A stretch of DNA of 64,000 nucleotides from a virus. A model generated the notes under the pieces. It saw nothing but the letters and a program-made list of their open reading frames with translations. It was not told the origin of the DNA and did not search any database. Location of the stretch: positions 62,001 through 126,000 of IMG/VR virus record IMGVR_UViG_3300042898_003677; one strand, given 5' to 3'. Of the stretch, positions 12,005 to 32,367 are shown piece by piece (the first letter of the stretch is position 1; every line of letters starts with the position of its first letter). The translations under genes and the position numbers were made by a program.

Positions 12005-13684
12005 TTAAGACTCTTTTCTCAAGCTTCTGTCATAATGTTCAAATCTATCGTGCTCAGTTGGGGTTGCAAATAACAATGCCGACTTGATATTACCCTTTTT
12101 AGTTTCTTGGAAAATGTAACTCATCCAAGTTTGTTCAAAAGGACGGTCCCACTTTGTTGTTAAGAACATTTTCTCGTTTCCATATCTTGTAACAACTTGT
12201 GGCCAGTTACAATAATAAACTTCACCAATACCATAAGGTAATCCTTGATATGAATATACTGCGTCAAATTTAGTTCTTGGCGCATTAGGGTCTAATCCTT
12301 GAACAGGTAGGTTTGGTTTTTCAGGCCAAAACTTTTCTCTAACTGTTTGAGGAACATTATACCAAGACCATTGAACTCCATTGTCCCCAAAAAACTCAGA
12401 ATAATTTAGTTTCAAAAAGTCTAATGAGTTTTCTCGGGTAATCTTCATAGACTTATTGTATAGGTCCTGAATATTTCTAATGAACCCATTTCTACAAACA
12501 GTATCTTTACCATCATAGAAGAACATATCGTCTTCAAAGAACCAATAAAAATCAAAACCATTTTCTTGTGCGTGTTCAGCGATAAATTGTCTACCACCAC
12601 AGATACCTAAGTTATCTTTTTTAATGTGTTCAAACTCGTATAACTTACAAAGTTCCGAGTATTCCTCGGTAGTTGACAAGTCACTTGAATTATCTAAAAG
12701 ATATTTCTTTTTAGGTTTTGTTAAGAAATTTTCATCATATAACTCCATAGACTTAATCAATGTTTTAAATTGATTAGGACTATTGAATGTAATTACATAG
12801 AGTGAGGTGTTATCATAATCTAAATCACTATAAGACTGTTTACCTGAAATATTTTTAACTTTATAGGTATCATTTTTAACATCTTCACAAAACTTAGAGA
12901 TAAGTCCGTTACCATCAATTTCGTGGTAATCAAACATATCGTTGTGTCTGTATAACATAATACTGAATAAAGATTCTTCAGTGCCCATTAAACCTCTACC
13001 TAAAGTCTCACTTAAAACACTATAATAAAGACTATTAACGTCTGTTATCATACTTTTTAATCCACCAAACAAACCTCCTCTACAAACAAGTTTTACATCT
13101 TGTCCTGCGTAATCATTAATCGTTGGGTATTTGAATCCGTGAATTTCATTTTCAGCGTCATATGGGAACGCCACAAACCCAAATCTTGGAAATACCTTAT
13201 CGAATTTTTCTTGAATTTTATCGTGTGTAAAATATCCAGGATGAACCGTATTTGTAATACCTGCATCAATCCAAAACAAATGTGTGGAGTCAAATTTGTC
13301 AAATATTTTTGCATCGTGCAATACAAACATTTTTGACATAACAAGAGGGTTATACATATCAAGTTTTGCTTGAGTTGATTCTGGCAGCCATCCCGATTGA
13401 CTATACCATTCAGGGTTTGTTCTTATAGACTGAATGATTTCATAAAAATCATTTTTAAACCATTCTTGAGGTCTTACAATAAATTGGGTATTTTCATTAT
13501 TTCTATTTGGTTGTGAAAATACGAATTCTTCAAGTTCTTTATCACCAAAAATAATAAAGTTAGTGTCTTGTCTTAAAAGTTCCGAGAACTTTTGTAGATA
13601 ATGGTCAAACGACCTTGACCATCCTTCAGTCAAAGAGTCACGTTTAATATTCCAAAGTCCGGTTACAAATGTAATTTTACTCAT
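12005..13684 (-). CDS. two-domain glycosyltransferase (WlaTC/HtrL-like N-terminus, GT2-like C-terminus)
   Basis: A 559-residue protein. Residues 1-270 match the WlaTC/HtrL (YibB) family seen in bacterial surface-glycan loci: ITFVTGLWNIKRD, NFIIFGDKELEEFV, LFWIDAGITNTVHPG, GLFGGLKSMI. Residues about 290-559 form a second transferase-like unit opening with SLYVITFNSPNQFKTLIKSM, then FYWFFEDDMFFYDG, whose EDDM gives a candidate metal-binding acidic cluster. The upstream neighbour carries only the first domain type, so this gene is a fusion or an accretion in the same cluster. Its start overlaps the preceding gene by eight bases. Substrates are unknown. Confidence 0.75.
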   Translation of the reverse strand: MSKITFVTGLWNIKRDSLTEGWSRSFDHYLQKFSELLRQDTNFIIFGDKELEEFVFSQPNRNNENTQFIVRPQEWFKNDFYEIIQSIRTNPEWYSQSGWLPESTQAKLDMYNPLVMSKMFVLHDAKIFDKFDSTHLFWIDAGITNTVHPGYFTHDKIQEKFDKVFPRFGFVAFPYDAENEIHGFKYPTINDYAGQDVKLVCRGGLFGGLKSMITDVNSLYYSVLSETLGRGLMGTEESLFSIMLYRHNDMFDYHEIDGNGLISKFCEDVKNDTYKVKNISGKQSYSDLDYDNTSLYVITFNSPNQFKTLIKSMELYDENFLTKPKKKYLLDNSSDLSTTEEYSELCKLYEFEHIKKDNLGICGGRQFIAEHAQENGFDFYWFFEDDMFFYDGKDTVCRNGFIRNIQDLYNKSMKITRENSLDFLKLNYSEFFGDNGVQWSWYNVPQTVREKFWPEKPNLPVQGLDPNAPRTKFDAVYSYQGLPYGIGEVYYCNWPQVVTRYGNEKMFLTTKWDRPFEQTWMSYIFQETKKGNIKSALLFATPTEHDRFEHYDRSLRKES

Positions 13685-14558
13685 CGATTTTATTTAATTC
13701 TTCTAAAATTTTATAGAAACTTTTGTTTTCAACAAAGTAACTGTCAGGGGTTTCTCTTGGAGCGTTATCTCTACACCACCAAGTATCAAAATGTTTTCTA
13801 ACAAAATATTCTGAATGGTTGTAAAACATTAGTGTCATAAACAATTCTTCAGGAAAAGGTCTTTTATCCTCTTCAATAATCTTGTCAGCGTAATTCTCAA
13901 ACATAGGTACTAATGTCTCCCATAATTCTCGTTTACCACCGAACATACCACCAATAATATGAATTGTTCTATCATAATTGGTATACCATTTTGGGTCAAC
14001 TGTTTGAGACCAAAAATTTCTATCATTATCTTTACCAATCAAAAAGAATTTATCTCCTGAAAATTCTACAACATTTTTTAAAAAATCATTATTAAATAAC
14101 GATGACTCATAAAACTTTCTTGGACCGTTTTCTACCGTAAGGTATTTGTTCGGTATTAATCCGCTATGTGATAAACCAGCATCAATCCAATAATAATAAT
14201 CGTATGTTTTATCTTCGTTCCACCACCAACTAAACTTTTGATATTGTATTTCAAAACATCTATCACTTTTTTTAGCGTCTTCATAGTTTTTATACTTTTG
14301 AAGTAGTGTTTCATATCTTGTGGTTCTTAAGTTAGACAACTCAAATTTTAATTTATCTTCAGATATACCATTTTCAACATAAAAGAAATTTTTTAATCTA
14401 TCAATTTCTCTTGTTGAGGTATAACACACAAAATCAGCATCGGTCATTTTTAATAGTGAGAGAAGTGAATTTAAGTAATGACCAAATCTTGATGGTCTAC
14501 CGCCTAACTCAGTCCCATATAGGTCACCGTAAATACAGGTTATAAATTTAACTGACAT
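13677..14558 (-). CDS. WlaTC/HtrL-like glycosyltransferase
   Basis: A 293-residue paralogue of the N-terminal half of the downstream protein: VKFITCIYGDLYG at the start, DADFVCYTSTREI, YYYWIDAGLSHSGLIPNKY and HIIGGMFGGKRELWE. The W-I-D-A-G motif with the later GG-x-FGG is shared by both, arguing for a local duplication. It overlaps both neighbours by about ten bases, so the minus-strand glycosyltransferase genes are translationally coupled. The family is associated with lipo-oligosaccharide synthesis; here a phage-protein or host-surface acceptor is possible. Confidence 0.72.
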   Translation of the reverse strand: MSVKFITCIYGDLYGTELGGRPSRFGHYLNSLLSLLKMTDADFVCYTSTREIDRLKNFFYVENGISEDKLKFELSNLRTTRYETLLQKYKNYEDAKKSDRCFEIQYQKFSWWWNEDKTYDYYYWIDAGLSHSGLIPNKYLTVENGPRKFYESSLFNNDFLKNVVEFSGDKFFLIGKDNDRNFWSQTVDPKWYTNYDRTIHIIGGMFGGKRELWETLVPMFENYADKIIEEDKRPFPEELFMTLMFYNHSEYFVRKHFDTWWCRDNAPRETPDSYFVENKSFYKILEELNKIDE

Positions 14559-15285
14559 AATAATATTCTTTATGAATGTTTTCTTTTTTCATTGTTTTAT
14601 TGTTTACGTTATTCATAAACTCATTAGGTATTTTTACCTCACTATAAAGGTTCCAATTGTATGTTTGACCGTAAAAATTATTACACATTTGTTGTGAAAC
14701 GTCTGACCAGTCATTAGTAATTTGTGGTGCTATGGGTAGAATTGGGCAATAACTTTGTTTTTTTAAATATACTTTTTGATATATGTAATCATCCACTGCG
14801 TAAAATCTTCTACGTTCATCTTCTTCTATGGAAATAACATCATCATATGATGATTCGTGATACAATATCATATTTGTTGCAAAAATACCTCTGTGTTCAG
14901 GAGACGCTGGTGGTAGATTAGTAATATCATTTAATAGTGGGTGTTTTTCGCTCCTATTAACATATCTATTTAAAGTTGGTGCCAAGTTAAAAACTGCGTA
15001 TTCAAGACTTTGACACTCATCTTCGATTGCTTTTAATAAAGATTTTGCATACGGCATAACAACACAATCATCTTCAATAATAAGAACTTCTTTATATCCT
15101 CTTTCTTTCGCAATTTTTAAAATAGCCGTGTGGGAAAGTGTACAACCCACGTGGCTATTAGTATCAACCGCCTTGAATAACTCAAAATCCCATTCAAGAT
15201 ATTCCATTTCTTTTTTAATGGATTCTAATCTATCAGGTCTTCTTTCAAGATTTACTACAAATTTTGGTATTGTATTGAACTTCAT
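14548..15285 (-). CDS. family 25-like glycosyltransferase
   Basis: A 245-residue GT25-type enzyme (lipooligosaccharide and collagen galactosyltransferase family). Diagnostic segments are FVVNLERRPDRLESIKKEM (the N-L-x-R-R-x-x-R opening), VGCTLSHTAILKIA (G-C-x-x-S-H) and EVLIIEDDCVV (E-D-D metal site). The aberrant part is the C-terminus, which lacks a recognisable acceptor domain and ends with a charged tail. It is third in a four-gene glycosyltransferase operon. GT25 enzymes transfer galactose or glucose to glycans or hydroxylysine; the donor here cannot be read. Confidence 0.8.
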   Translation of the reverse strand: MKFNTIPKFVVNLERRPDRLESIKKEMEYLEWDFELFKAVDTNSHVGCTLSHTAILKIAKERGYKEVLIIEDDCVVMPYAKSLLKAIEDECQSLEYAVFNLAPTLNRYVNRSEKHPLLNDITNLPPASPEHRGIFATNMILYHESSYDDVISIEEDERRRFYAVDDYIYQKVYLKKQSYCPILPIAPQITNDWSDVSQQMCNNFYGQTYNWNLYSEVKIPNEFMNNVNNKTMKKENIHKEYYYVS

Positions 15286-15288: not shown

Positions 15289-16536
15289 TTAAAGATTTCC
15301 TGTTAATCTATCACACCAACCCTTAGATTCTGAGTGAGGCCATACAACCCAATATTTAGGTTTTTCTGCTGTTTGGAATTCTCTCCATACTTTACAATAT
15401 CCATCAGGGTCTCTTAACATTGAAGTAATTTCATTTTTATCAGCGTCTTTTCTAAAGATTGTTTCATCATTTTCATTGTGGAACGCAACCACCCAAAAAT
15501 CATAATCTTTTTCAGGTACTGAAGAATAACCAATATCAATACAGTGTTTGAATACTTGTGCGAAATCGGCTTTCCAATCATCTTCAGACTCATAATTGTA
15601 TGGATTTGGCGGATATTTTTTATCAATTGTGTATTGCTGAACAGCTCTTTTTTCAAATAAAAGACCCGCATATTTTTCATAATCTCTTAAACTTCTAACG
15701 GTACCAAAGCCATAAGGACCATCGTGACCTTCTTGAGTTTCACCGTCCATACCAAACAACTTTCTATTTGTTAAGTGTGAGTGATTATTTTTATTAACCC
15801 ATTCTTTGTCATCATCCCATTGTTTTGTTCTTCCTTTACGAGTATACTCGTGCCAAATTAATGTTTTATGTGGGTGAAACAAATCATAACCCCAAGTATA
15901 TGCTCTTGCGGCGATTGAAATTTCTTCTCCGTGGAAGTAATATTCGGGATTGTGTTGTACCTCGTTTGAGAATTCACCTAATGTAAAACAATAGTGTGCA
16001 GAATAGAATCTTGCGGGGATTGGTTCTTTTAAATCTTGCCAACCAGGAATTGTTTCAGGTAAGAAAAATACCGCACCTTCAGGAATAAATCTATCAAAAA
16101 CCATTCTCCAAGGGTCTTGAACTCTACCTGCAGGGTCGTTTTCAGGGTCAAATGATGAAACATATCCTGTTAATAAAGGTTTTTTATGACCTTTCTTTTG
16201 AAGTTGTTTAATCATCTTAATCATCTCGTCATCCCAATTAGGTGCGAACCTCATATGTGAGTCAATTTGTAGGGTATATTCTTCACCCTCATAAAGTTGT
16301 TGTGTTAAGTTTCTAGCCCAACAAACGCCTTTAGATTCTTCGTGTGGAATATCTAAAACTCTGAATCTTTTATCCCCTTCAAATTCTTCTAAACTGTCAA
16401 ATTTATCATCGGGGTGAAATTGTCTTGCAATACCAAATCTAATATTTTTTGGTTTTTTAGCATTTTCCAACATATTCTTAATTGTTGGAACGAGTTGTGG
16501 GTCTCTATAGGACGCAATTTGAACAAAAATTTTCAT
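15289..16536 (-). CDS. GlcNAc-transferase family protein (PF11397 / GT60-like)
   Basis: A 415-residue enzyme with the hallmarks of the GlcNAc family that contains Skp1 and mucin-type polypeptide O-alpha-GlcNAc transferases: FVQIASYRDPQLVPTI at the start, GVCWARNLTQQLY, then YTLQIDSHMRFAPNWD, where D92-S-H94 is the DxD-equivalent, and GEEISIAARAYTWGYDLF toward the end. Known family members act on Ser/Thr or hydroxyproline in proteins. It is the first gene after the terminator of the Thr/Pro-rich fibre gene, which makes those repeats plausible acceptors. The family call is strong; the acceptor is inference. Confidence 0.82.
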   Translation of the reverse strand: MKIFVQIASYRDPQLVPTIKNMLENAKKPKNIRFGIARQFHPDDKFDSLEEFEGDKRFRVLDIPHEESKGVCWARNLTQQLYEGEEYTLQIDSHMRFAPNWDDEMIKMIKQLQKKGHKKPLLTGYVSSFDPENDPAGRVQDPWRMVFDRFIPEGAVFFLPETIPGWQDLKEPIPARFYSAHYCFTLGEFSNEVQHNPEYYFHGEEISIAARAYTWGYDLFHPHKTLIWHEYTRKGRTKQWDDDKEWVNKNNHSHLTNRKLFGMDGETQEGHDGPYGFGTVRSLRDYEKYAGLLFEKRAVQQYTIDKKYPPNPYNYESEDDWKADFAQVFKHCIDIGYSSVPEKDYDFWVVAFHNENDETIFRKDADKNEITSMLRDPDGYCKVWREFQTAEKPKYWVVWPHSESKGWCDRLTGNL

Positions 16537-16559
16537 TACACTTTTTTTTAAAAAATAAA

Positions 16560-16585
16560 AAACCCTCCAATAAAGTGGAGGGTTT
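16560..16585 (-). terminator. rho-independent terminator
   Basis: A 10-base-pair stem (AAACCCTCCA / TGGAGGGTTT) with a six-base loop. On the minus strand it is followed by a T-rich run, so it ends the fibre-gene transcript before the GT60-like gene. Confidence 0.85.
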
Positions 16586-16613
16586 ATATGAAAGTTGTTT
16601 TAAATAATTTGAA

Positions 16614-17933
16614 TTAACATCCGTTAGGGTCTGTCTGAACAATAACTCCTGAAGAATCTGTTCTGTACCAAGCGGTACCGTTAGACCAATATGCAACTCC
16701 TACAGGGTTTGATAATGGGTCAATTGTTTGATATAATGTCTCACCTAAGTTTGGTCCTACACCACCTGATACCGAACCATAAACTGTAATAGGACTAGCC
16801 GCACAAGCTAAGTTAGCGGTTGAGCCTGATGATAACGAGTAAACATAATTATTTCTTGTTGGTGTTGGTGTTGGTGTACTTGTTCCTGTGTTAGTTGGTG
16901 TTTGAGTATTAGTTGGAGTATTAGTTGCGGTATTAGTTGGTGTTTGAGTATTAGTTGGTGTTGGTGTGTTAGTTGCTGTTTGTGTTGGTGTTGGTGTTAA
17001 TGTTGGACATATTGAGAATCCATTTAATTCATAACCTGCAGAATCTAACTCAACAACTTGACCCGAATTCTGATAGAAACCTGACATATCAGTTGTTACA
17101 GGTCCTGAAGGAGAATCATAGAAGAAAATATTTTGGTCAAAGAATTGATTTATACCATATATCTCAATAGACGTACCGTAATTACCACAAGCATCAAGGG
17201 CATTATTTGCGAAATTCACGGCAAATTGGAATCTAGCAGGTTCAGTTGTTGATGGTGTTGGAGTTGGTGTTTGAGTATTAGTTGCGGTGTTTGTTGGTGT
17301 TTGAGTAATAGTTGGTGTTGGTGTGTTAGATGATGTGTTGGTTGGAGTATTAGTCGGGGTTTGAGTTTGGGTACTAGTCGGAGTGTTAGTTGGTGTTTGT
17401 GTATTTGTAGGTGTTTGCGTTGGTGTACCTGTTTGAGTATTTGTTGGTGTTTGTGTTTGAGTTGATGTATTTGTTATAGTATTAGTCGGTGTCTGAGTTG
17501 GTGTATTTGTTGCGGTATTAGTTGGTGTTTGTGTTTGGGTATTACTTGGTGTGTTAGTTACAGTATTTGTTGGTGTATTAGTTACAGTATTTGTTGGTGT
17601 TGGTGTAGGCGTTTTGGTTTGAGTATTAGTTGGGGTTTGAGTATTAGTTGCGGTGATAGACGGTGTTGGAGTTGGGGTTCTTGTATTAGTTGGTGTTGGA
17701 GTATTAGTCGCAGTTTGAGATGGTGTTGGTGAAATAGGAGGGAATGTCTCCTCAACAATAGTAAATTGTGCTGATAAAGCAGCTTGAAACGTACCATTAA
17801 CCAACCAAATATTTCGTACTTGACCAGGTGTTAATAAGATATCGTATTCCCACATATTGTTGGAACACTCTTGATAAGAGAAAGTTAATCCCTGAGCTGT
17901 GTTATTAGTTAGTGTGTATTTTTTACAAGCCAT
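16614..17933 (-). CDS. mucin-like Thr/Pro-rich modular fibre/adhesin protein
   Basis: A 439-residue modular protein. Residues 1-70 (CKKYTLTNNTAQGLTFSYQE) form an N-terminal domain shared almost identically with the next upstream gene. A stalk of about 160 residues of T-P-T-N/Q repeats follows. Next comes a globular module (about 233-312) bracketed by Cys (DACGNYGTSIEIYG to GFSIC), a second short T/P stalk, and a C-terminal module ending GVIVQTDPNGC. Almost every second stalk residue is Thr, like mucins, giving dense potential O-glycosylation sites. No signal peptide or membrane segment is seen, consistent with a virion fibre. A terminator follows the gene. Fibre role is inferred from architecture. 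Confidence 0.8.
   Translation of the reverse strand: MACKKYTLTNNTAQGLTFSYQECSNNMWEYDILLTPGQVRNIWLVNGTFQAALSAQFTIVEETFPPISPTPSQTATNTPTPTNTRTPTPTPSITATNTQTPTNTQTKTPTPTPTNTVTNTPTNTVTNTPSNTQTQTPTNTATNTPTQTPTNTITNTSTQTQTPTNTQTGTPTQTPTNTQTPTNTPTSTQTQTPTNTPTNTSSNTPTPTITQTPTNTATNTQTPTPTPSTTEPARFQFAVNFANNALDACGNYGTSIEIYGINQFFDQNIFFYDSPSGPVTTDMSGFYQNSGQVVELDSAGYELNGFSICPTLTPTPTQTATNTPTPTNTQTPTNTATNTPTNTQTPTNTGTSTPTPTPTRNNYVYSLSSGSTANLACAASPITVYGSVSGGVGPNLGETLYQTIDPLSNPVGVAYWSNGTAWYRTDSSGVIVQTDPNGC
16860..17000 (-). repeat. T/P-coding degenerate repeat (second stalk)
   Basis: Short degenerate ACN-CCN-ACN units (GTTGGTGT on the plus strand) encoding the distal T-P-T-N-T stalk of the 439-residue fibre protein. 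Confidence 0.8.
17240..17740 (-). repeat. T/P-coding degenerate repeat (main stalk)
   Basis: About 500 bases of degenerate repeats with units of 12-24 bases, encoding the main stalk. Strong strand asymmetry: G/T on plus, A/C on minus. Confidence 0.85.
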
Positions 17934-17972
17934 TTTAGTAGTTCTTTATTATTAAATATCATCAATATGTTA

Positions 17973-18542
17973 TTAACAACTGCCAGTGTCTATAATAACT
18001 CCTGACCCGTTAGTTTGGATATAATTATGCCCATCAGAATAGAATGATGCTTCAGTTGTTGAGGTCATTGCAAAATTTAAATAAACAATATCACCATTAA
18101 TCAAATTTGAAAATAGTTTTGTCGAATATCTTGGTGCATTTCCCTGTGGATAGTTATTACAAGCATTTACCGACAAAGTATCATCAATCCCTAAATCAGA
18201 ATATTCAAACACTACTTGTGTTGGGGTTGGAGTCGGGGTTGATGTACGTGTTGGTGTTACTGATTGTGTTGGAGTAGGAGTTAACGTTGGAGTAACTGAT
18301 GGCGTTGGTGTATTAGTCGGAGTCTGAGATGGTGTTGGTGAAATAGGTGGAAACACTTCTTCAGTGATTGTGAATTGTGCCTCTAAAGCCGCTTGAAAAG
18401 TTCCGTTAACTAACCAAATATTTCTAACTTGACCAGGTGTTAATAAGATATCGTATTCCCACATATTGTTGGAACATTCTTGATAAGAAAAAGTTAAACC
18501 TTGTGAGGTGTTGTTTGTTAAAGTATATTTTTTACAAGACAT
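17973..18542 (-). CDS. short mucin-like fibre protein, paralogue of downstream gene
   Basis: A 189-residue protein with the same N-terminal domain as its downstream neighbour: the first 70 residues differ at only a few positions. It has a short T/P stalk (about residues 70-110) and a C-terminal module from NACNNYPQG to GVIIDTGSC. That end resembles the C-terminal module of the neighbour (GVIVQTDPNGC). The two genes are a tandem duplication with different stalk length and head, 39 bases apart. The shared N-terminus is presumably the virion-attachment end, so the two may compete for or share one attachment site. Confidence 0.78.
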   Translation of the reverse strand: MSCKKYTLTNNTSQGLTFSYQECSNNMWEYDILLTPGQVRNIWLVNGTFQAALEAQFTITEEVFPPISPTPSQTPTNTPTPSVTPTLTPTPTQSVTPTRTSTPTPTPTQVVFEYSDLGIDDTLSVNACNNYPQGNAPRYSTKLFSNLINGDIVYLNFAMTSTTEASFYSDGHNYIQTNGSGVIIDTGSC

Positions 18543-18551
18543 AATATTTTA

Positions 18552-20459
18552 TTAACTATTTAAACAAGTTATACAATTATTCCAAGGACCCGATATAACG
18601 TCTGCGAATGTGGTTACTGTTGCAGTTGTTGTTGATATTATCGTGTAACAAGAAACACCATCATTAATTACATCTAATTTATAGATTTTACCCGTCTGTA
18701 AAGTATCATAAATACCAAACTGACCAACAAATCCTGAAGAACAATCTTGTACTAAATATTTTTTAGCCCCTTGAGGTGTGTCAGTAGGTGTTACTGACGG
18801 TGTATTTGTATTTGTTGGTGTTGGACTTGCGGTATTAGTTGGAGTCTGTGTTTGTGTTGGAGTCTGTGTTTGTGTTGTTGTATTAGTTGGGGTTTGTGTT
18901 GGAGTATTTGATGCCGTGTTTGTTGGTGTCTGTGTTGCGGTATTAGTTGGTGTCTGTGTTTGTGTTGCCGTGTTAGTCGGAGTTTGAGTCGGAGTTTGAG
19001 TTGAGGTATTGGTTGGTGTATTTGTTGCAGTATTTGTTGGTGTTTGAGTTGGTGTTGGCGTATTACTAGCAGTATTAGTTGGTGTCTGAGTAGGTGTGTT
19101 GGTGGCAGTGTTTGTTGGTGTTTGAGTTGCGGTATTTGTTGGAGTATTTGTTGGTGTTTGAGTAGGTGTATTTGTTGCGGTATTAGTTGGAGTGTTAGTT
19201 GCAGTATTAGTTGGTGTCTGAGTTGGTGTATTTGTTGCAGTATTAGTTGGGGTATTTGTTGCTGTGTTTGTTGGAGTCTGAGTCTGAGTTGGAGTTTGAG
19301 TTGGTGTAGGTGTGTTGGTTGCGGTATTAGTCGGAGTTTGAGTTTGGGTAGGTGTATTTGTTGCTGTGTTAGTTGGAGTCTGAGTTTGAGTTGGAGTTTG
19401 AGTTTGGGTTGGTGTTTGGGTAGGTGTAGGTGTAAGTGTTACGCATATTGAATACCCACCTGTTTCATTACCTGATGAATCCAACTCAACAACTTGTGCA
19501 GATTGTTGGTAGTAACCTGTCATATCAACGGTTACTGGACCTGACGGAGAATTGTAGAAGAAATTGTTTTGGTCGAATATAGTTTCAATACCATATATGG
19601 TAGTTGATGTTCCATAATTACCACAAGCCTCATCATATGTACCACCTTTGATAACTGAGAACGCATATCTTGGTGGTTCACTTGGGGTTGGAGTTTGTGT
19701 TTGTGTTTGTGTCGGAGTTTGTGTTTGTGTCGGAGTTTGTGTTTGTGTCGGAGTTTGTGTTGGAGTCTCTGTATTAGTTGGTGTTTGGGTTGGTGTTGAA
19801 CCTAATGTAGATGTTGGTGTCTGAGTTGGTGTAGATGTTGGTGTGTTTGTCGCAGTATTAGTTGGTGTGTTTGTTGCGGTATTAGTTGGTGTGTTTGTTG
19901 CGGTATTAGTTGGCGTATTTGTCGCAGTATTAGTTGGTGTGTTTGTTGCGGTATTAGTTGGCGTATTTGTTGCGGTGTTAGTTGGCGTATTTGTTACCGT
20001 ATTAGTTGGAGTTTGTGTCGGAGTATTTGTATTACTTGGAGTTTGAGTTGGGGTTGAACCTAAAGTTGACGTTGGTGTTTGAGTAGGTGTAGGTGTCTGT
20101 GTGTTTGTAGGTGTCTGTGTGTTTGTAGGTGTTTGAGTTGCAGTATTTGTTGGCGTCGGCGTATTAGTTGTTGTATTAGTAGGTGTTGTTGTTGGTGTAA
20201 CAGTCATTGTTGGCGTACTCGTACTAGTTACCGTAGGCGTAGGTGTTGGGCTTACTGGTGGAACCGTAACTTCTAAAGTGTAAGTGTAGTCATATGTTGG
20301 AATGTACATTTCAAACACACCATAATAGTATGATGAAATATAATTAAATGGTATTACTTGCGTACCCAAATCTATTGTACCCCCCGAAGCAGGTAGATAC
20401 GTTACTTCAGCGGTTTGACCACTTAAATTATTACTTAAAATTCTAATTCCAATTGCCAT
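18552..20459 (-). CDS. long mucin-like Thr/Pro-rich fibre protein
   Basis: A 635-residue protein. Residues 1-75 are an N-terminal beta domain distinct from its neighbours (MAIGIRILSNNLSGQTAEVT). A stalk of about 185 residues of T-P-T-N/Q/A repeats follows, including seven near-identical 24-base units. A Cys-bracketed module (EACGNYGTSTTIYG to GGYSIC), clearly homologous to the module in the 439-residue protein, comes next. Then there is a second stalk of about 220 residues and a C-terminal module with five Cys (VQDCSSGFVG ... NNCITCLNS). More than half of the protein is Thr, Pro, Asn or Gln. No coiled coil or hydrolase motif is visible. A TATTTATT element lies five bases before the start. Confidence 0.8.
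   Translation of the reverse strand: MAIGIRILSNNLSGQTAEVTYLPASGGTIDLGTQVIPFNYISSYYYGVFEMYIPTYDYTYTLEVTVPPVSPTPTPTVTSTSTPTMTVTPTTTPTNTTTNTPTPTNTATQTPTNTQTPTNTQTPTPTQTPTSTLGSTPTQTPSNTNTPTQTPTNTVTNTPTNTATNTPTNTATNTPTNTATNTPTNTATNTPTNTATNTPTNTATNTPTSTPTQTPTSTLGSTPTQTPTNTETPTQTPTQTQTPTQTQTPTQTQTQTPTPSEPPRYAFSVIKGGTYDEACGNYGTSTTIYGIETIFDQNNFFYNSPSGPVTVDMTGYYQQSAQVVELDSSGNETGGYSICVTLTPTPTQTPTQTQTPTQTQTPTNTATNTPTQTQTPTNTATNTPTPTQTPTQTQTPTNTATNTPTNTATNTPTQTPTNTATNTPTNTATNTPTQTPTNTPTNTATQTPTNTATNTPTQTPTNTASNTPTPTQTPTNTATNTPTNTSTQTPTQTPTNTATQTQTPTNTATQTPTNTASNTPTQTPTNTTTQTQTPTQTQTPTNTASPTPTNTNTPSVTPTDTPQGAKKYLVQDCSSGFVGQFGIYDTLQTGKIYKLDVINDGVSCYTIISTTTATVTTFADVISGPWNNCITCLNS
18780..19440 (-). repeat. 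T/P-coding repeat tract (distal stalk)
   Basis: About 660 bases of degenerate 12- to 24-base units, the longest tract in the window, encoding the second stalk of the 635-residue protein. Confidence 0.85.
19843..20010 (-). repeat. seven tandem 24-base units
   Basis: Seven consecutive 24-base copies (plus-strand form GTRTTTGTYGCRGTATTAGT plus four bases), each encoding eight residues of the T-N-T-A-T-N-T-P type. Differences are mainly at third codon positions, suggesting expansion followed by drift. Confidence 0.85.
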
Positions 20460-20464
20460 ATTCT

Positions 20465-20472
20465 AATAAATA
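20465..20472 (-). promoter_or_regulatory. late-type octamer variant (TATTTATT)
   Basis: Five bases before the start of the long fibre gene. Confidence 0.4.
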
Positions 20473-20490
20473 GTTGAATCCAAATAAGAT

Positions 20491-22476
20491 TTATAAAATG
20501 TCATAAGATAAATCGTTATTTGGTAATAATGTATAATTCAGGTCATTATTCGGAAGTAATACGAAACCTAAATCGTTATCAGGTATTGATATGTAATAGA
20601 AGTCATTTGCCGGTATAACAATAGTACAATCAATACAATCAGTATCTAATAAATCATACTTATTTTTTAGTAACCTAAAATTGTGTCTAATTTGTGACGC
20701 ATCCAAAGGTTCGGTATACATTCTAAACGCACTGATATCACCAATGAAACTACCACCAAAAATCTCTTCTAAATGTATTTCAGTTGTTAAACCTGAATAG
20801 ATTGTGTGTTCCAAATCATAATCAGTCAAACACTCAGGGTCTTGTTGATATGTAATTGCCGACAATGTCGGAGCACATCCACCCGAAAAAGTTAAGTTGT
20901 CTTTTAATCCTTGAGTTCCCCCACCTAATGAAATGTTGTATGGAACCCCAATTTGTTTTTCTTTATATGTGTTTAATGGTCGAGCAACAATTTCTTCAAA
21001 ATCATCGATAATCATAAATTGTTTACCGTTAACATAAACATAAAGTTTACCTAACCTGTATTTTCTTTGTTGAATCCAATAATCGTTAATTTCAACAACA
21101 TCCGTTGTTGCGGGAACGTCTTTAGGGTTGTGTGTAATTGGGGGTTCAATTAGGGAGACGCTATTGTTTGCTGTGGTTGCGGTATAAATCTCAGTGACCA
21201 ATTGTCCTAATCCACCAAGAGAATATTGGTCCTTACAATCTAACCAATCATTTCTTCTAAACACAACATCAATTTGAACCCAGTGTTCCACATTTGGATA
21301 TGTTGTTCCTGTACATCCATCAAAAATTCCTTTTGATGAACACCACTCGATTACCGTGGTTCCTGTTACAAATGTTGTTCCTGTTTCACAAGTTCCCGTT
21401 GTAACACAAGAACCCGTTATTAGATACTCTTTAACACAGACTTTAGGGTTACCAGTATCACCGCTAAGTCTAACTGACATACCGTTTGAAACCCCGTCAT
21501 ATAACGGGTCTAGTTCAGGATATTCGGCTTTAACCTCACACTGACAAGCACATCCACAACTACAGTTTTTGGATGTTCCTCCTGACATTTGATAAACGTG
21601 AATACACTGATTTGAATTTGTGTAACCTGTTTCGTGACAAAGACAAGTTTTCATACAAGTCAAACCTGATGTTACTCTTGTATATCCTGTGTCACTTTCA
21701 GGACTTCCGTCAGGATAGTGATAAAATTTATTTTCGGCTCTTGTCCCCAAATAGAAGAAGGTACCTTTGTTATTTGGGTATCTATTATTAATACCGACAC
21801 TTGTATCACCTGTCCATCTGTATTTTAATAAAAACTCAGCGGTCCAACCTTGATTAGTTCTAACAGGGAATGTATCATAATCGTATCCTTGTAATTTAAA
21901 AAACCCTTGGAAGAATCCTCCGTTAAGTGTTGCCACGGTTCCGATACGACCGCCAGCATTAGACCAACTTAAATTATAGTTATATGAGTTGTCATTCCAC
22001 AATCTGTTTGAAGGAGTTGTACTACCAGTAATTGGATGCATTTTAAATCTCCTATCGTACTTGTATCTGTTATATGTTTCGGCGGTTGTTGTGTACAGTC
22101 CTGTCGTAATGTCTATTGAAACCCCTGACATTTGTAATGTCAAACCATTGTCAATTCCTGTAAGTCCTACGTCACACAATGTTGACGCACAAACACAAAA
22201 GTTTGGGTCAATGTTTTTTGGGTTGTAATAATTTTCAGAAACTATTGTGTCATATAAAAATTCGTTTCTTAAAGGAGCAATTGTTGTTCCAGTAGAATTG
22301 AAATCAAATTTCAAAGGCATTCTATTACCATCATCTTCAGCGATTAGAAATGGTGAAAAGATAACCTCTTGGTTATAATCTTTTTCGTCAGATGCTAAAC
22401 AAAAATCAGTTACTTGGTTTACCGGTAGTAATCCAATTCTACGATAATTGTATTGATTAATATTTTGATATGCCAT
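20491..22476 (-). CDS. large Cys-rich fibre/adhesin with LamG-like region
   Basis: A 661-residue putative fibre or adhesin. The middle (about residues 190-260 and 380-510) alternates strands such as GWTAEFLLKYRW, GTFFYLGTRAENKF, VEHWVQIDVVFRRNDW and LGKLYVYVNGKQFMIIDDFEEI, the pattern of a concanavalin/LamG-type beta sandwich; IGDISAFRMYTEPLDASQI is typical of the end of such a domain. A Cys-dense insert sits near residues 280-310 (CMKTCLCHETG, then CSCGCACQCEV). The last 45 residues contain four I/L-P-x-N-D-F/L-x-Y/F repeats. It heads the fibre operon. Host-glycan or surface binding is inferred. Confidence 0.75.
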   Translation of the reverse strand: MAYQNINQYNYRRIGLLPVNQVTDFCLASDEKDYNQEVIFSPFLIAEDDGNRMPLKFDFNSTGTTIAPLRNEFLYDTIVSENYYNPKNIDPNFCVCASTLCDVGLTGIDNGLTLQMSGVSIDITTGLYTTTAETYNRYKYDRRFKMHPITGSTTPSNRLWNDNSYNYNLSWSNAGGRIGTVATLNGGFFQGFFKLQGYDYDTFPVRTNQGWTAEFLLKYRWTGDTSVGINNRYPNNKGTFFYLGTRAENKFYHYPDGSPESDTGYTRVTSGLTCMKTCLCHETGYTNSNQCIHVYQMSGGTSKNCSCGCACQCEVKAEYPELDPLYDGVSNGMSVRLSGDTGNPKVCVKEYLITGSCVTTGTCETGTTFVTGTTVIEWCSSKGIFDGCTGTTYPNVEHWVQIDVVFRRNDWLDCKDQYSLGGLGQLVTEIYTATTANNSVSLIEPPITHNPKDVPATTDVVEINDYWIQQRKYRLGKLYVYVNGKQFMIIDDFEEIVARPLNTYKEKQIGVPYNISLGGGTQGLKDNLTFSGGCAPTLSAITYQQDPECLTDYDLEHTIYSGLTTEIHLEEIFGGSFIGDISAFRMYTEPLDASQIRHNFRLLKNKYDLLDTDCIDCTIVIPANDFYYISIPDNDLGFVLLPNNDLNYTLLPNNDLSYDIL

Positions 22477-25109: not shown

Positions 25110-26327
25110 ATGTCAAAAATTAATGTTTTATGTGTCCCATCTGACCGTTCAGGTGTTGGCAAATTCAGGTCGTTAGACCCCCACATTTTTCTTCAAAATC
25201 AATATCCCGAGGATTTTTTTGTTGAGATTGATTACAATCCACCTATGAATGATTTGAATTTCTATAAGAAATTCCAAATTGTACATTTCCATAGAAGTAT
25301 CACAGGAGACTTTGATGCATCTAAAAAGTTAGTTGAGGAACTAAATAAAATGGGTGTTATCACAATTTGTGATATCGATGACTATTGGATGCCAAGCAAA
25401 GACCACCCAATTCACGATGTTATTATGTATAATAAAATCAATGAAAGAATTGTTGAAAGTCTTAAAGGGGCACAATACGTAACAACAACCACCACTTTAT
25501 TCGCAGATGAAATTAAAAAGATTAATAAAAATGTGTTTGTATTACCAAACGCAGTTAATCCCGAAGAACCACAATTCAAAGAAGTAACACCCGAATCTGA
25601 TAGACTCAGAATTGGTTGGTTAGGTGGTTCATCACATATGGGTGATTTGAAGTTGTTAGACAACTCATTTAATAAATTACTCCAATTCAAAGATAAAGTT
25701 CAATATGTTCTTTGTGGGTTTGACACAAGAGGTACGATTACTGAAATTAACGGTCAAACAGGTGAACAGAAGAAAAGACAAATTCTTCCTCACGAAACTG
25801 TGTGGGCTAGATACGAAGAAATCTTTACACAAAACTATAAAGTTGTTTCAGAAGATTTTAAAAATCATTTGATGAAGTTTGAACAAGGTGAAAAACCTGA
25901 GTTTTTAGGGGAGGGTTACCGTCGTGTTTGGACACTTCCTGTTACATCATATGCTAAAAATTATTCTAAGATGGACGTTTCATTGGCCCCAATCAAAAAC
26001 CATATGTTTAACAGAATGAAGTCTCAACTTAAAGTTATTGAGGCGGGATTCTATAAAAAAGCTGTTGTGGCGTCTGATTTGGGTCCCTACACACTTGATT
26101 TGACACACTCATTAGACAAACACGGTAAGTTTACAGATGGTAACGCGCTACTAGTTAGTGAATACTCAAACGCTCACGATTGGGCTAAATATTTGGAGAA
26201 ATTAATCAAAAACCGTAATTTTGCTACTGACTTGGGTGAGAGATTGTATGAGTCTGTTAAAGACAAATATGATTTGAAAAATGTCACTAAAGACCGAGCA
26301 GAATTGTACAAAAGTTTAATTAAATAA
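25110..26327 (+). CDS. GT-B (family 4-like) glycosyltransferase
   Basis: A 405-residue GT-B fold enzyme. The N-terminal half has INVLCVPSDRSGVGKFRSLD and QIVHFHRSITGDF, then CDIDDYWMPSKDHP and VFVLPNAVNP, the hinge. The C-terminal donor half begins LRIGWLGGSSHMGDL, with VSLAPIKNHMFNRMKSQLKV, EAGFYKKAVVAS and NALLVSE, matching the E-x7-E-type donor site of GT4 (E followed by G-x-x-x-x-x-x-x-S/D). It opens the long plus-strand operon and is followed two bases later by a nuclease gene. Probable donor: a nucleotide sugar, unknown. Confidence 0.8.
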   Translation: MSKINVLCVPSDRSGVGKFRSLDPHIFLQNQYPEDFFVEIDYNPPMNDLNFYKKFQIVHFHRSITGDFDASKKLVEELNKMGVITICDIDDYWMPSKDHPIHDVIMYNKINERIVESLKGAQYVTTTTTLFADEIKKINKNVFVLPNAVNPEEPQFKEVTPESDRLRIGWLGGSSHMGDLKLLDNSFNKLLQFKDKVQYVLCGFDTRGTITEINGQTGEQKKRQILPHETVWARYEEIFTQNYKVVSEDFKNHLMKFEQGEKPEFLGEGYRRVWTLPVTSYAKNYSKMDVSLAPIKNHMFNRMKSQLKVIEAGFYKKAVVASDLGPYTLDLTHSLDKHGKFTDGNALLVSEYSNAHDWAKYLEKLIKNRNFATDLGERLYESVKDKYDLKNVTKDRAELYKSLIK

Positions 26328-27663: not shown

Positions 27664-29283
27664 ATGATTACTATTGGATATTCTACCCGAGAAAGTAAAC
27701 CTGAGTTTATTGAATACTTAAAAACCTCATCAGGTTATGCCAAAAATGTTAGGGTTATTGAGAAAGTTAATAATGGTGAAAAATCACTATCACAAGTTTA
27801 TAATGAAATTTTAAATGAAAGTGAAACTGATATTGTAATCTTTTGTCACGATGATATCTATTTTGATAGTACTGGATGGTATCATAAAATACTAAAACAT
27901 TTTGAAAAAACAGATTACGGAATTTTAGGTGTTGCTGGTACCAAATTTATGAGTGAAAATGGTACTTGGTGGTCCGACAGAAGAAAGATGTATGGTGTTG
28001 TTAATCACGAAAGTGGGGGTAAAAAATGGGAATCAAAATACTCCACATCATTAGGAAACGGTATCGATGATGTTGTTGTTCTTGACGGTGTTTTTTTAGT
28101 GGTTCATAAGAATAGAATTAATCATAACTTTGTCGAAGAATTTGAGGGATTTCACTTCTACGATATTCCATTTTGTTTTGAGAACTTTTTAAGTGGTGTA
28201 AAACTTGGTGTTATGTATAACGTAAGAATTACTCACAAATCAGTTGGTATGACTAACGAACAATGGGAGATAAATCGAAAAAAATTCGAGGAAAAATACA
28301 ATCAACATCTACCACAAAAATTGGCATTAGACCCTAAGACAAAATTAAAGATTTTGTTTACTTGTTTATCATTTAAAACATTGACAGGTTCTGAACTTTA
28401 TGTATACCAATTAGCCAAGTCACTTAAGAAAATGGGACACGATGTTTCTGTTATGTCAGAAATTGGTGGTCCTTTAACTGATATGGCAAAAAAAGATGGT
28501 ATCAAAGTTTATTCAATTAGAGAACCTTTGGGCTATAAATTAGGAGATGGAAAGTGGAGTTTTCAAAATGGTGAAATTTCACAACCAAATGTCCTATACC
28601 CTGTTGGAGAATTGATGGTAGATTTAATTCACACTCAACACAAACCAATCACAGAACATATTTGTAGACTTTATCCAAACATACCAAAAATATCCACAAT
28701 ACATTCTGAAGTAATTGATTTGGAAATTCCATATGTTCACGAATCTATTAAAAAATACATTGCAATCAGACCTGAAATTAAAGATTATTTGATTACTGAA
28801 CACTCAATCGACGAGGAAAAAATTAAAGTAATTTACAACCCAATTGATAATACAAAATTTAAATCATCGACAACAAGTGAGGATTATGTTCTGTTTGTCG
28901 GTACTTTAGATTATTTGAGAAAAAATACAATTTTTGATTTAGTTGAGAAAACTAAAGAAAGGGGTTTGAAATTAGTGGTTGTTGGTGAAGATAAATCAAT
29001 TTATTTAAACGAATTAAAAAGTCACTCTCACGTAGAATATTATCCTGCGACTTGGTCGGTTGAGAAATATGTTTCAAAGTGTAAAGAAACTGCAGGTATT
29101 CAATTAGGGAGAACAACTATTGAAGGTTGGATTTCAGGTAAACCAGGTTGGATTTATAAAGTCGATGCTCAAGGGAATATAATGGATATTGAGTATCACG
29201 AACCCCCAACTGATGTGGATAAATACTATTCGGAAAATGTTACTAAACAAGTAATTGATGAATATCTTTATTCGGTAGTTTAA
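27664..29283 (+). CDS. two-domain glycosyltransferase (GT2-like plus GT4-like)
   Basis: A 539-residue fusion. Residues 1-220 resemble the GT2-like family of PF13712 type: MITIGYSTRESKPEFIEYLK, VIFCHDDIYFDSTGWY (H-D-D metal site), YGILGVAGTKFM and DGVFLVVHKNRI. Residues about 225-539 are a GT-B unit: KILFTCLSFKTLTGSELYVY, YIAIRPEIKDYLI, KVIYNPIDNTKF, DYVLFVGTLDYLRKNT and GIQLGRTTIEGWISGKPG. The two units could act in sequence on one glycan. It lies ten bases after the dUTPase gene. Confidence 0.8.
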   Translation: MITIGYSTRESKPEFIEYLKTSSGYAKNVRVIEKVNNGEKSLSQVYNEILNESETDIVIFCHDDIYFDSTGWYHKILKHFEKTDYGILGVAGTKFMSENGTWWSDRRKMYGVVNHESGGKKWESKYSTSLGNGIDDVVVLDGVFLVVHKNRINHNFVEEFEGFHFYDIPFCFENFLSGVKLGVMYNVRITHKSVGMTNEQWEINRKKFEEKYNQHLPQKLALDPKTKLKILFTCLSFKTLTGSELYVYQLAKSLKKMGHDVSVMSEIGGPLTDMAKKDGIKVYSIREPLGYKLGDGKWSFQNGEISQPNVLYPVGELMVDLIHTQHKPITEHICRLYPNIPKISTIHSEVIDLEIPYVHESIKKYIAIRPEIKDYLITEHSIDEEKIKVIYNPIDNTKFKSSTTSEDYVLFVGTLDYLRKNTIFDLVEKTKERGLKLVVVGEDKSIYLNELKSHSHVEYYPATWSVEKYVSKCKETAGIQLGRTTIEGWISGKPGWIYKVDAQGNIMDIEYHEPPTDVDKYYSENVTKQVIDEYLYSVV

Positions 29284-29334: not shown

Positions 29335-31311
29335 ATGATAGTTCTTACAACAACATATAATTGTGAAAATTTTGTAGAAAGGTCTTTACTGAGTATAATG
29401 AGTCAACGTTTTAAAAACTTTACTTGTTATATTACTGATGATATGTCTACCGACAATACAGTGTCAATAATCAAAGAGACTATTAAGGGTGACGATAGAT
29501 TTGTATTGATTGAAAATACAAAAAAGATGTATCAACCAGGAAATTACGACCAAGTAATCAGAGGTTTAAACATACCTGATGATGAGGTTTGTGTTGAAGT
29601 AGATGGTGATGATTGGTTACCTAATTCAAATGTATTAGGGTTTATTGACGATGTTTATAAAAACCCTGATATTTGGATGACAAGTGGTTCATTTAAGTAT
29701 CACGATGGTAGACTTGGTTTTGCAAAAAAACCACATAATTTATTAGACATTAGAAAACAAACTTTTACCCTAACGCATTTAAGAACTTGGAAATCTTGGT
29801 TATGGAAAAAAATTGAGCAGTCTGATTTAATGGATTCTAATGGCGAATATTGGTCGGTTGCTGGGGATTTATCATTTATGTTTCCAATGGTTGAGATGTC
29901 AGGCGAAAAACACTTTAAGTTCATACCTGAAATTTTATACGTCTATAACGAATCAAACCCGTTAAATGACCATAAAGTTAATATGTCAGTTGTGAATAAT
30001 ACAACGTCAATAATTAGGAATAAGAAACCATACAAAAGATTATCAGGTTCCGAATCAACAAACCCACACGATTTAATTACAAATCAAAGATTTGATGTGA
30101 TTGTTAAATATCTTTACGCACAATCTATAATTAAAAATTATCAGACAGATACGTACAAAAATTTATACAAAGAACATTTAATAAAATGGAATAATTGTTT
30201 TGAAATTTCAAACCCATCAAAAAATTCATTCGAGGTATTTGACAATACTTTTAAAGATATTATCACTAATATAAGTGAGAATGGATTTGACCCACAAATA
30301 TCAAAAATCCCTGTGGTGAATGATAAATATATTGTTAATGGTGCTCACAGATTGGCCGCGAGTTTAGCTTTAAATAAGAATGTTTTTACTGAAGAATCTA
30401 CAAGTATTAAAGACGGTCAACTAATTTGTTCTTGGGAGGGTGAATTCAAAAAATTAAATTTAAGTGAAACTCTATGTGATAGAGTTGCTCTTGAATACGC
30501 AAAATTAAAAAATAACACTTATATTGTTAGCGTTTTTCCATCAACAGGAGGGAATATCGAAGTACCTCTTTCTATTCTAAAAAAATACGGTTCTGTATTT
30601 TATTACAAACAAATAAAATTAGAAAAGAACGGTCCTCTAAACTTTATGAGAGAGTTATATGCCGGTGAACAATGGGCTGGTAATCATCAAAACAATTACA
30701 TTGGTTATAGACAGAAAGAAGGTTTGTGTTTTACACAAAACGCACCTGTAACAATCTTCTTAGTTGAATTTGATAGTGTTGAGCAGTCTGTAAGAGCTAA
30801 AGAAGAAATTAGGAATCGTTTTAATATAGGAAAACATTCTGTTCATATAAATGACACTCACGACCAAACTATCAGACTTTCACAATGTGTATTTAATCAG
30901 AACTCAATAAAATTTATGTGTGATAGTACCCCATCAGATTACAGAAAATTTGATGGTTTATTAAATAGTTTTAAAAAATATATTGAGGATAATAATTTAG
31001 ATATTGATGAATATGCGGTAACCGCAAGTTCAATACTATCAATCTATGGTCTTAGAGAAGGTAAAGACTTAGATTATATCCACACAAAATCAGCACCGTT
31101 AATTAAAGTAAGTGATGATATACAATCTCATAATTCATATGGTATTGGTAGATATGAACTTAATTATGATGAAATAATTCACAATCCAGTTAATCATTTC
31201 TATTCGAGAGGGGTCAAATTTGTTTCCCCAAAAATAATAAAAGATATGAAAGAAAAGAGGAACGAACCGAAAGATATTAACGATATAAACCTATTAAATA
31301 GTATATTGTAA
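29335..31311 (+). CDS. multidomain GT2 glycosyltransferase with ParB-like and nucleotidyltransferase-like segments
   Basis: A 658-residue protein. Residues 1-240 are a GT2 domain: VLTTTYNCENFVERSLLSIM, CYITDDMSTDNTVSII, VCVEVDGDDWLPNS (D-G-D-D) and LRTWKSWLWKKI. Residues about 325-350 read ISKIPVVNDKYIVNGAHRLA, the N-G-x-H-R-x-A-A signature of ParB-like nucleotide-binding folds. Residues about 560-640 include YAVTASSILSIYGLREGKDL then a D-x-I-H, resembling a nucleotidyltransferase-fold active site (G-S-x-x-x-x-x-G-x-R-x-x-x-D-x-D/H). The middle, about residues 380-540, is unassigned. Such composite enzymes occur in surface-glycan loci; the chemistry of the non-GT parts is unknown. Confidence 0.75.
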   Translation: MIVLTTTYNCENFVERSLLSIMSQRFKNFTCYITDDMSTDNTVSIIKETIKGDDRFVLIENTKKMYQPGNYDQVIRGLNIPDDEVCVEVDGDDWLPNSNVLGFIDDVYKNPDIWMTSGSFKYHDGRLGFAKKPHNLLDIRKQTFTLTHLRTWKSWLWKKIEQSDLMDSNGEYWSVAGDLSFMFPMVEMSGEKHFKFIPEILYVYNESNPLNDHKVNMSVVNNTTSIIRNKKPYKRLSGSESTNPHDLITNQRFDVIVKYLYAQSIIKNYQTDTYKNLYKEHLIKWNNCFEISNPSKNSFEVFDNTFKDIITNISENGFDPQISKIPVVNDKYIVNGAHRLAASLALNKNVFTEESTSIKDGQLICSWEGEFKKLNLSETLCDRVALEYAKLKNNTYIVSVFPSTGGNIEVPLSILKKYGSVFYYKQIKLEKNGPLNFMRELYAGEQWAGNHQNNYIGYRQKEGLCFTQNAPVTIFLVEFDSVEQSVRAKEEIRNRFNIGKHSVHINDTHDQTIRLSQCVFNQNSIKFMCDSTPSDYRKFDGLLNSFKKYIEDNNLDIDEYAVTASSILSIYGLREGKDLDYIHTKSAPLIKVSDDIQSHNSYGIGRYELNYDEIIHNPVNHFYSRGVKFVSPKIIKDMKEKRNEPKDINDINLLNSIL

Positions 31312-31314: not shown

Positions 31315-31914
31315 ATGCCAATATCAGATAACCTAAAAACAATTTTTGTCCATATACCAAAAAACGCTGGTACTGCAATTACTAATAGTAAAATTGCAAG
31401 ATTTTATATGGGTGGTCACGATTCGGCAAAAGAAATTAAAAATAAAGAACCTAAAAAATGGGACGAATATTTCAAATTTGCCGTCATTAGAAATCCTTGG
31501 GATAGGGTCGTTTCCAATTATGAGTATGCTCGTATGGAAAAAAGTTATTGGCACCACGTAAGTGACACGAATGTTGGCGCGGCTCATTTCGATTACCATA
31601 CATTGAAAGATAAAACATTTGAGGAGTGTGTTAATATGTTGTATGAAGACAGGTCGTCTTTAAAACATCAAGGTTGGGCACCTCAATATGTGTGGATATC
31701 TGATAATGAAAAAAATATTTTAGTTGATAAAGTTTTTTATCACGAAACTTTAGAAACTGATGAGGAGTTTAATAAGTTAATTCCTGATTTAGAAAAGGTA
31801 AACTTTAGTGATAGAAAAAGCAACAATTACAAAGATTATTATACTGAAGATTTGATACGTAAGGTGTCAGAGATTTATGAATATGATATAAATTTATTTA
31901 AATTCAAATACTAA
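31315..31914 (+). CDS. PAPS-dependent sulfotransferase (carbohydrate type)
   Basis: A 199-residue sulfotransferase. The 5'-phosphosulfate loop is IFVHIPKNAGTAIT (residues 10-23) and the 3'-phosphate site is FAVIRNPWDRVVSNY (55-69); both are diagnostic of the Sulfotransfer_2 family that sulfates glycans. It lacks membrane anchors and is shorter than eukaryotic members. It is followed three bases later by APS kinase, which makes the PAPS donor, so the two very likely work together. The acceptor is probably a glycan made by the surrounding genes. Confidence 0.9.
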   Translation: MPISDNLKTIFVHIPKNAGTAITNSKIARFYMGGHDSAKEIKNKEPKKWDEYFKFAVIRNPWDRVVSNYEYARMEKSYWHHVSDTNVGAAHFDYHTLKDKTFEECVNMLYEDRSSLKHQGWAPQYVWISDNEKNILVDKVFYHETLETDEEFNKLIPDLEKVNFSDRKSNNYKDYYTEDLIRKVSEIYEYDINLFKFKY

Positions 31915-31917
31915 ATT

Positions 31918-32367
31918 ATGATTTATTGGTTTACAGGCCAGCCAGGCCACGGAAAAACGGTTTTATCTAACCATTTAAAAGGTTATTTAGAATCAAATTA
32001 CAAAAAAAATGTCATTCACATTGATGGTGATGACATTAGAGAAATCTTTCAGAATAAAGACTATTCAAGGGAAGGTAGAATTAAAAACATAACATTCGCA
32101 CAAAACTTGGCACATTTTTGTAGTCACAAAGGATTTGACGTTGTTGTTAGTGTTGTTGCACCATATAAAGAAGTTCGAGATTCTTTTAAGGAAAGAATGG
32201 GTGAAAATATGGTAGAATTATATGTACACACAACTGAGGAAAGAGGACGTGAAAATTACCACGTCGCAGATTACGAAGCACCAACTGAAAATTATGTTGA
32301 TGTTGATACAACAGATGAATCACCAGAAGGTTCATTGGTTTACATTATTAATGAATTAGATATATGA
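31918..32367 (+). CDS. cysC: adenylylsulfate (APS) kinase
   Basis: A 149-residue kinase converting APS and ATP to PAPS. It has the P-loop FTGQPGHGKT (residues 5-14; usual bacterial form GLSGSGKS/T), HIDGDDIRE (D36-x-D38-D39), the NKDYSREGRIKNI segment and VVVSVVAPYKEVRD, all in the expected order. It is slightly shorter than E. coli CysC (201) because the N- and C-terminal extensions are missing. The P-loop variant Q-P-G-H is noticeable. It lies between a sulfotransferase and a HAD gene and overlaps the latter by four bases. Confidence 0.9.
   Translation: MIYWFTGQPGHGKTVLSNHLKGYLESNYKKNVIHIDGDDIREIFQNKDYSREGRIKNITFAQNLAHFCSHKGFDVVVSVVAPYKEVRDSFKERMGENMVELYVHTTEERGRENYHVADYEAPTENYVDVDTTDESPEGSLVYIINELDI

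Follow-up and report, generated by a model that had tools for sequence, protein, structure and literature searches.

The 64,000-nucleotide stretch analysed here (the window) covers positions 62001-126000 of a 150,075-base viral record, possibly incomplete, from a large freshwater phage (IMG/VR record IMGVR_UViG_3300042898_003677) with T4-type head genes (Gp23 and Gp20). Its minus strand encodes a PF11397 polypeptide glycosyltransferase (GNT; 415 amino acids (aa), 15289-16536) next to three mucin-like, threonine-rich stalk proteins. From the sequence evidence below we consider it probable, at roughly three in four, that this phage glycosylates its own Thr-rich stalks in mucin-type fashion, with the PF11397 enzyme as initiator and the neighbouring transferases acting after it. 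This arrangement was put forward in an original prediction made from the letters alone, and the coordinates and strands of all the open reading frames (ORFs) named there check out. Positions are those of the window unless stated otherwise.

Threonine-rich stalk genes and a PF11397 glycosyltransferase

The stalk proteins comprise 439 aa with 120 Thr (16614-17933), 189 aa with 32 Thr (17973-18542) and 635 aa with 227 Thr (18552-20459). Threonine makes up 27% of the 439-aa and 36% of the 635-aa protein, with a Thr-to-Thr spacing of two in 95 and 190 cases, respectively, and other spacings rare; within the best 50-residue window, T, P, N, Q and S account for 98% (439-aa), 96% (635-aa) and 82% (189-aa) of the residues. 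The claim that all three carry stalks of Thr, Pro, Asn and Gln holds for the 439-aa protein, which has two stalks and small globular domains, and for the 635-aa protein, whereas the stalk of the 189-aa protein is short (~50 residues); the N-terminal part of this protein is 84% identical to the same part of the 439-aa protein. Synonymous Thr codons in the stalk genes are mixed, in proportions similar to those of other genes, which argues that the stalks are not merely a young DNA repeat. Also on the minus strand is a gene (20491-22476) for a 661-aa protein. In relatives, its N-terminal domain occurs as a fusion with Thr-rich stalks, and lectin-like (Laminin_G_3) domains are present in some of these. 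Two more Thr-rich ORFs lie in the same phage record, at 146727-146972 (plus strand) and 13747-13965 (minus strand) in record coordinates.

GNT is the next gene past one terminator, as had been predicted: an intrinsic terminator-like hairpin with a 10-bp stem and a T run (16560-16585, minus strand, read 16585-16560) separates it from the 439-aa stalk gene. Of the five terminator-like sites in the region, this hairpin ranks first; such sites are overall no more frequent there than in shuffled sequence.

GNT is a strong match to Pfam PF11397 (E = 1.5e-66; 225.7 bits where the cut-off is 21), with the profile at 97-351 and a further N-terminal stretch; for phrog_24687 the E value is 1e-166. The motifs ASYRDPQL, CWARN and IDSHMRF, from which the family had been recognised, are all present. 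Invariant in 32 aligned phage relatives are D92-S93-H94, G203, E205 and H229-E-Y-T-R; by analogy with GT27, H229 would be the conserved C-terminal histidine that binds the metal. The AlphaFold (AF2) model (predicted local distance difference test (pLDDT) score 91.7) has a GT-A fold. Foldseek comparison with the PDB returned polypeptide N-acetylgalactosamine (GalNAc)-transferases as the first 15 matches (E = 2e-10 to 2e-9; 10-16% identity in the fold alignments). Thus the leading structural neighbours are mucin-type initiators, from GT27 where GT60 had been named, and none of the 15 is of an unrelated enzyme class. Matches in a viral structure library were further N-acetylglucosamine ('GlcNAc') transferases, from uncultured Caudovirales, together with an N-acetyl-glucosamine transferase from a pandoravirus. 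Sequence searches of the PDB with GNT, as a single sequence and as a profile, gave no match; fold comparison alone did. A survey of GT-A enzymes groups GT27 with GT60, both having DxH and polypeptide Ser/Thr O-glycosylation in common (PMC7185993). Because of the fold matches, the DxH motif and this grouping, GNT is predicted to be an enzyme of the mucin-initiating type. The sugar may be GlcNAc, which is the family's label.

The three minus-strand genes downstream of GNT had been proposed to be transferases, and domain and model evidence makes this plausible for each. The first (14548-15285) encodes a GT25 family glycosyltransferase (PF01755, E = 4.1e-15, 56.6 bits, cut-off 24), and a GT25 gene lies downstream of GNT in 20 of 45 relatives (partner counts cover only loci with enough flanking sequence). 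The second, YibA (13677-14558), has no family match; its AF2 model (pLDDT 92.3) is of GT-A fold and retrieves GT-A-type nucleotide-sugar enzymes, GT6 and xyloside xylosyltransferase in Foldseek. It is 31% identical to ORF332 of the Xanthomonas jumbo phage XacN1 and has a counterpart in 27 of 45 relatives. Both are candidates for chain extension. The third gene (12005-13684) encodes a two-domain protein, 39% identical over its full length to XacN1 ORF330, with an HtrL_YibB N-terminal half (PF09612, E = 7.4e-11) and a GT-like C-terminal half weakly matching TAGT and phrog_842. A YibB-type gene is the most constant partner of GNT: 44 of the 45 loci in the window clade and 12 of the 13 in the XacN1 clade have one downstream.

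Pairing of enzyme and stalks in phages and bacteria

One IMG/VR scan yielded 538 GNT relatives. For the linkage counts, 80 kept loci were clustered at 97% DNA identity of the gene, giving 46 window-clade clusters with enough flank. A Thr-rich ORF, usually directly upstream of GNT, ended within 160 nt upstream in 28 of these 46 and was found within 1.6 kb upstream in 38 and anywhere in the locus in 42. When long viral contigs were fetched by the TPTN repeat alone, PF11397 was present in 19 of 50, while none of the 28 random contigs had it (Fisher p = 5e-5; p = 0.005 against the 13 random contigs of at least 40 kb). The gene pairing suggested for other phages was therefore found, and it extends to bacterial chromosomes. 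A tblastn search of phage records with one stalk protein gave no match, probably owing to the low-complexity filter.

A recognisable GNT relative occurs in only 3 of 50,697 phage records, all of the XacN1/RAS14 lineages. In this clade (XacN1, the Stenotrophomonas phage RAS14 and contigs), Thr-rich matches number 14 in XacN1 and 9 in RAS14, and Thr-rich stalks were detected in 4/4 clade contigs of at least 175 kb, 0/14 random contigs and 0/7 control reference phages. XacN1 resembles the window phage in having many Thr/Pro-rich proteins and a PF11397 protein 48% identical to GNT (ORF334) with a YibB-type transferase and a GT-A protein downstream (ORF334-ORF330). It differs in that its Thr-rich genes are scattered, a carbamoyltransferase is added, no GT25-like gene occupies the corresponding slot, and its DNA polymerase is similar to that of the window phage in short patches only. 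ORF331 was considered as the GT25 counterpart and rejected. Jumbo phages of Xanthomonas/Stenotrophomonas and bacterial chromosomes both have the core cassette, a PF11397 enzyme with a YibB-type transferase.

Thr-rich genes may also have a regulatory signature. The promoter-like motif TATTTAT occurs 25 times in the window and lies within 60 nt upstream of 14 of its 63 genes, where 0.7 sites are expected. The genes that it precedes, by 11-45 nt (window 18552, 20491, 53197, 55042, 56481, 57212 and others), include those for the portal and other head-region products, the 635-aa stalk protein (13 nt) and the 661-aa protein (17 nt). In relatives, the motif stands upstream of Thr-rich ORFs in 45 of 60 cases, of GNT genes in 2 of 44 and of other ORFs in 39 of 370, a distribution by which the stalk genes look structural-class and the enzyme gene does not. 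In XacN1, the Thr-rich ORF369, ORF370 and ORF372 adjoin tail sheath genes. Motif and XacN1 gene position support, but do not prove, that the stalk proteins are virion parts; the motif assigns them to a structural gene class, which is less specific than the fibres named in the original prediction.

A scan of bacterial genomes gave 168 PF11397 relatives. Among 17 loci with a genuine Thr-rich ORF, PF11397 lies within 600 nt of it in 10 (p = 6e-7), after one of 11 near Thr-rich ORFs (L332) was dropped for overlapping the GNT frame. Five of the 10 neighbouring Thr/Pro-rich proteins have a twin-arginine (Tat)-like signal, compared with 9 of 1255 background ORFs, those five included, and one neighbour has a secretion-system sorting tail (PF18962). 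Tat substrates are exported folded, and these signals point to cytosolic modification before export. The bacterial YibB-GT two-domain protein was likewise found beside PF11397 and Thr/Pro-rich exported proteins. In Jiulongibacter sediminis the gene order is Thr/Pro-rich protein, PF11397, carbamoyltransferase and an FkbM-YibB-GT fusion; on this gene order the locus is the phage cassette in a chromosome, and it has the carbamoyltransferase in common with XacN1. At this locus (L280:5942-13145), the Thr/Pro-rich protein is of Tat type and lies between two PF11397 genes. Some bacterial loci come from metagenome bins and may be phage contigs; the Jiulongibacter sequence is that of an isolate, on a contig of 1.3 Mb. 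In the tree, bacterial sequences split the two phage clades (100/99), with the window clade beside Saprospiraceae, so that the enzyme gene has probably passed between bacteria and phages more than once.

Proposed stalk glycosylation and its alternatives

The analysis establishes what the genes are, the fold of the enzyme and its invariant residues of catalytic type, a linkage that is conserved in bacteria and two phage lineages, and a promoter-like motif in common with head genes; the reaction, the sugar, the location in the virion and the biological role given next are inferred. The Thr-rich stalk proteins would be made as structural-class gene products. In the cytosol of the infected cell, GNT would start the chains on many of the ~380 Thr that the three stalk proteins contain together; the sugar it adds is most likely an N-acetylhexosamine in alpha linkage, donated by a uridine diphosphate (UDP)-sugar. 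Extending and decorating the chains would then fall to the transferases encoded by the three downstream genes, perhaps along with a module at 25-43 kb described below. The outcome would be rod-like, densely glycosylated virion stalks that act like mucin domains: stiff, extended, protease-resistant and possibly adhesive or shielding.

Several observations weigh against this proposal. The Foldseek TM-scores of GNT are ~0.5 and the root-mean-square deviations large, indicating a common GT-A catalytic core and no close match. PF11397 was not found in 31 of the 50 TPTN contigs (some of them fragments), so stalks also exist without the enzyme. A 2018 report describes at least two virion glycoproteins in XacN1 (PMC5852040), which in the available portion of that report are counted and not named, and in the XacN1 clade the Thr-rich genes sit elsewhere in the genome rather than beside the enzyme. 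GNT lies behind a terminator and has no stalk-gene motif, which implies that it and the stalk genes are not simply co-transcribed. Finally, the loci are related by descent, and their counts overstate independence.

It is improbable that the cluster serves instead to alter host surface glycans (lipopolysaccharide (LPS), O-antigen or capsule) against superinfection, with the stalk adjacency incidental. Phages do carry serotype-converting transferases, Pfam names GT25 an LPS biosynthesis family, and a literature search on HtrL/YibB with glycosyltransferases led to papers on lipooligosaccharide outer-core loci. However, the initiator is polypeptide-type by family, fold and DxH motif, phages and bacteria alike have kept it linked to Thr-rich proteins, and no flippase or lipid-carrier enzyme is among the identified window genes, although no search was aimed at them. 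Just as unlikely, in our view, PF11397 would act on another virion or host protein while the Thr-rich stalks are unmodified flexible linkers. The TPTN contigs with Thr/Pro linkers and no PF11397 would fit this, as would mycobacteriophages, whose glycosylated proteins are capsid and tail-tube subunits according to work cited in PMC12619734; the specific adjacency, the genome-level co-occurrence and the bacterial pairing with Tat-type Thr/Pro proteins speak against it. A third alternative, that the transferases glycosylate bases of the phage DNA in the manner of T-even phages or TET-associated systems, is highly improbable and was rejected. In its favour is the C-terminal half of the 12005-13684 protein, which weakly resembles TAGT (20.6 bits against a threshold of 27.5) and the HMC glucosyltransferase family phrog_842. 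Against it, base-modifying partners were not found in the 150-kb record, itself possibly incomplete (no TET/JBP, PF12851, in a search whose positive controls gave no signal either; no thymidylate-synthase-fold hydroxymethylase, PF00303, in a search that was positive in 9 control genomes), and in bacteria this two-domain protein is encoded next to PF11397 and exported proteins rich in Thr/Pro.

Glycosylation of the phage's own stalks has partial precedents. The enzymes TcOGNT of Trypanosoma cruzi and Skp1 Gnt1 (GT60, tied to PF11397) have DxH and transfer alpha-GlcNAc to polypeptides, the T. cruzi acceptor being Thr of surface mucin-like molecules (PMC9472816, PMC6939170); here the enzyme is phage-encoded, the proposed acceptors are viral stalks and the cassette holds several transferases. 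Animal GT27 enzymes provide the closest solved folds and have DSH, the C-terminal His and, on the present proposal, Thr/Pro-rich acceptors in common with GNT, which differs in working with no Golgi and in having no significant PDB sequence match. Chlorovirus PBCV-1 and mycobacteriophages encode transferases held to glycosylate virion proteins; these are other enzymes with other acceptors, which are not known to be mucin-type stalks. In Gram-positive bacteria, GtfA/GtfB O-glycosylates serine-rich repeat adhesins, mucin-like low-complexity proteins, in the cytosol, and neighbouring transferases then extend the chains. That system has a GT-B-fold initiator and accessory Sec export, in contrast to the GT60/GT27-like initiator here and the Tat-type signals in bacteria.

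The original prediction knew of no described phage system of this design. This was too strong, since the authors of the XacN1 report proposed phage-encoded glycosylation (PMC5852040); the mucin-type design is not recognised in the accessible portion of that report. Our literature search, whose coverage left out most subscription journals, gave no paper joining PF11397 and phage and, among the titles listed, no mucin-type phage or bacterial system. The idea of phage self-glycosylation is thus already known, and mucin-type initiation on Thr-rich stalks, with its bacterial counterpart, appears to be new.

More broadly, we regard it as an even bet that there is a prokaryotic mucin-type system, not recognised before, in which a cytosolic GT60/GT27-like initiator and YibB-type transferases act on Thr/Pro-rich stalks, which in bacteria are Tat-exported surface proteins, and that at least two phage lineages have adopted it to modify their virions, in some cases with 6-deoxy-sugars, carbamoylation or sulfation as additions. 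Mucin-type O-glycosylation is regarded as a eukaryotic trait. If the proposal is true, it has a widespread counterpart in phages and bacteria with the likely acceptor encoded next door, offering simple genetics to study and engineer dense O-glycans in bacteria. Many environmental phages would then cover part of the virion in sugar chains of their own making, which would matter for adhesion, for host range and for how other organisms recognise them.

A second glycan-gene module and other features

A further set of glycan-related genes occupies 25-43 kb on the plus strand. Four of its transferases are of uncertain membership in the system: a GT4-like transferase (25110-26327; phrog_7162 glycosyltransferase, 2.1e-42, with PF13692/PF00534 below cut-off), a GT2-type plus GT4-type fusion (27664-29283; PF13712, 4.6e-29; PF13439, 1e-13) and two GT2 family transferases (29335-31311, PF00535, 3.2e-14; 42101-42907, PF00535, 5.8e-9). 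A carbohydrate-type sulfotransferase (31315-31914; PF03567, 1.7e-12, 48.5 bits, cut-off 22) could sulfate glycans, and an APS kinase-like protein (31918-32367; PF01583, 1.7e-17) could supply the donor 3'-phosphoadenosine-5'-phosphosulfate (PAPS); this succession, at 31315-32367, may represent phage glycan sulfation. Next come a HAD phosphatase fused to a sugar-phosphate nucleotidyltransferase (34501-35901; PF13419, 8.8e-34; PF00483, 2e-9), a GT10 enzyme of the fucosyltransferase family (35939-36781; PF00852, 8e-10) and a GDP-mannose 4,6-dehydratase-like protein (38327-39307; PF16363, 4e-115; TIGR01472 gmd, 381 bits, below the cut-off of 415), putatively for 6-deoxyhexose donor synthesis. The module also encodes methyltransferases, and a short DegT-like protein within 34501-39307. 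The GT10 enzyme, the dehydratase, the sulfotransferase and the APS kinase together suggest elaborate glycans. The sulfotransferase was found in only 3 of 17 window-clade contigs tested, two being near copies, a patchiness which indicates that glycan decoration varies.

Among contigs with Thr-rich ORFs but no PF11397, GT2 genes were present in 9 of 10 checked, not near the stalks compared. Five such loci were scanned, and a YibB-type protein was beside the stalk gene in one (L206) only; there, at L206:2676-11732, an HtrL_YibB-type protein directly precedes a Thr-rich ORF of 2443 aa, a locus that came up through the repeat pattern alone. The viral contigs L172, L125 and L152, in which PF11397 was not found, have Thr-rich ORFs of 3,600-4,600 residues.

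Elsewhere in the window, residues 49-238 of a 522-aa ORF (4769-6337) form an Fe/Mn superoxide dismutase domain, the rest of the ORF being unexplained. A Shine-Dalgarno-like sequence precedes only 1 of the 63 window genes, and start regions are A/T-rich, a pattern known from Bacteroidota, to which the host may belong.

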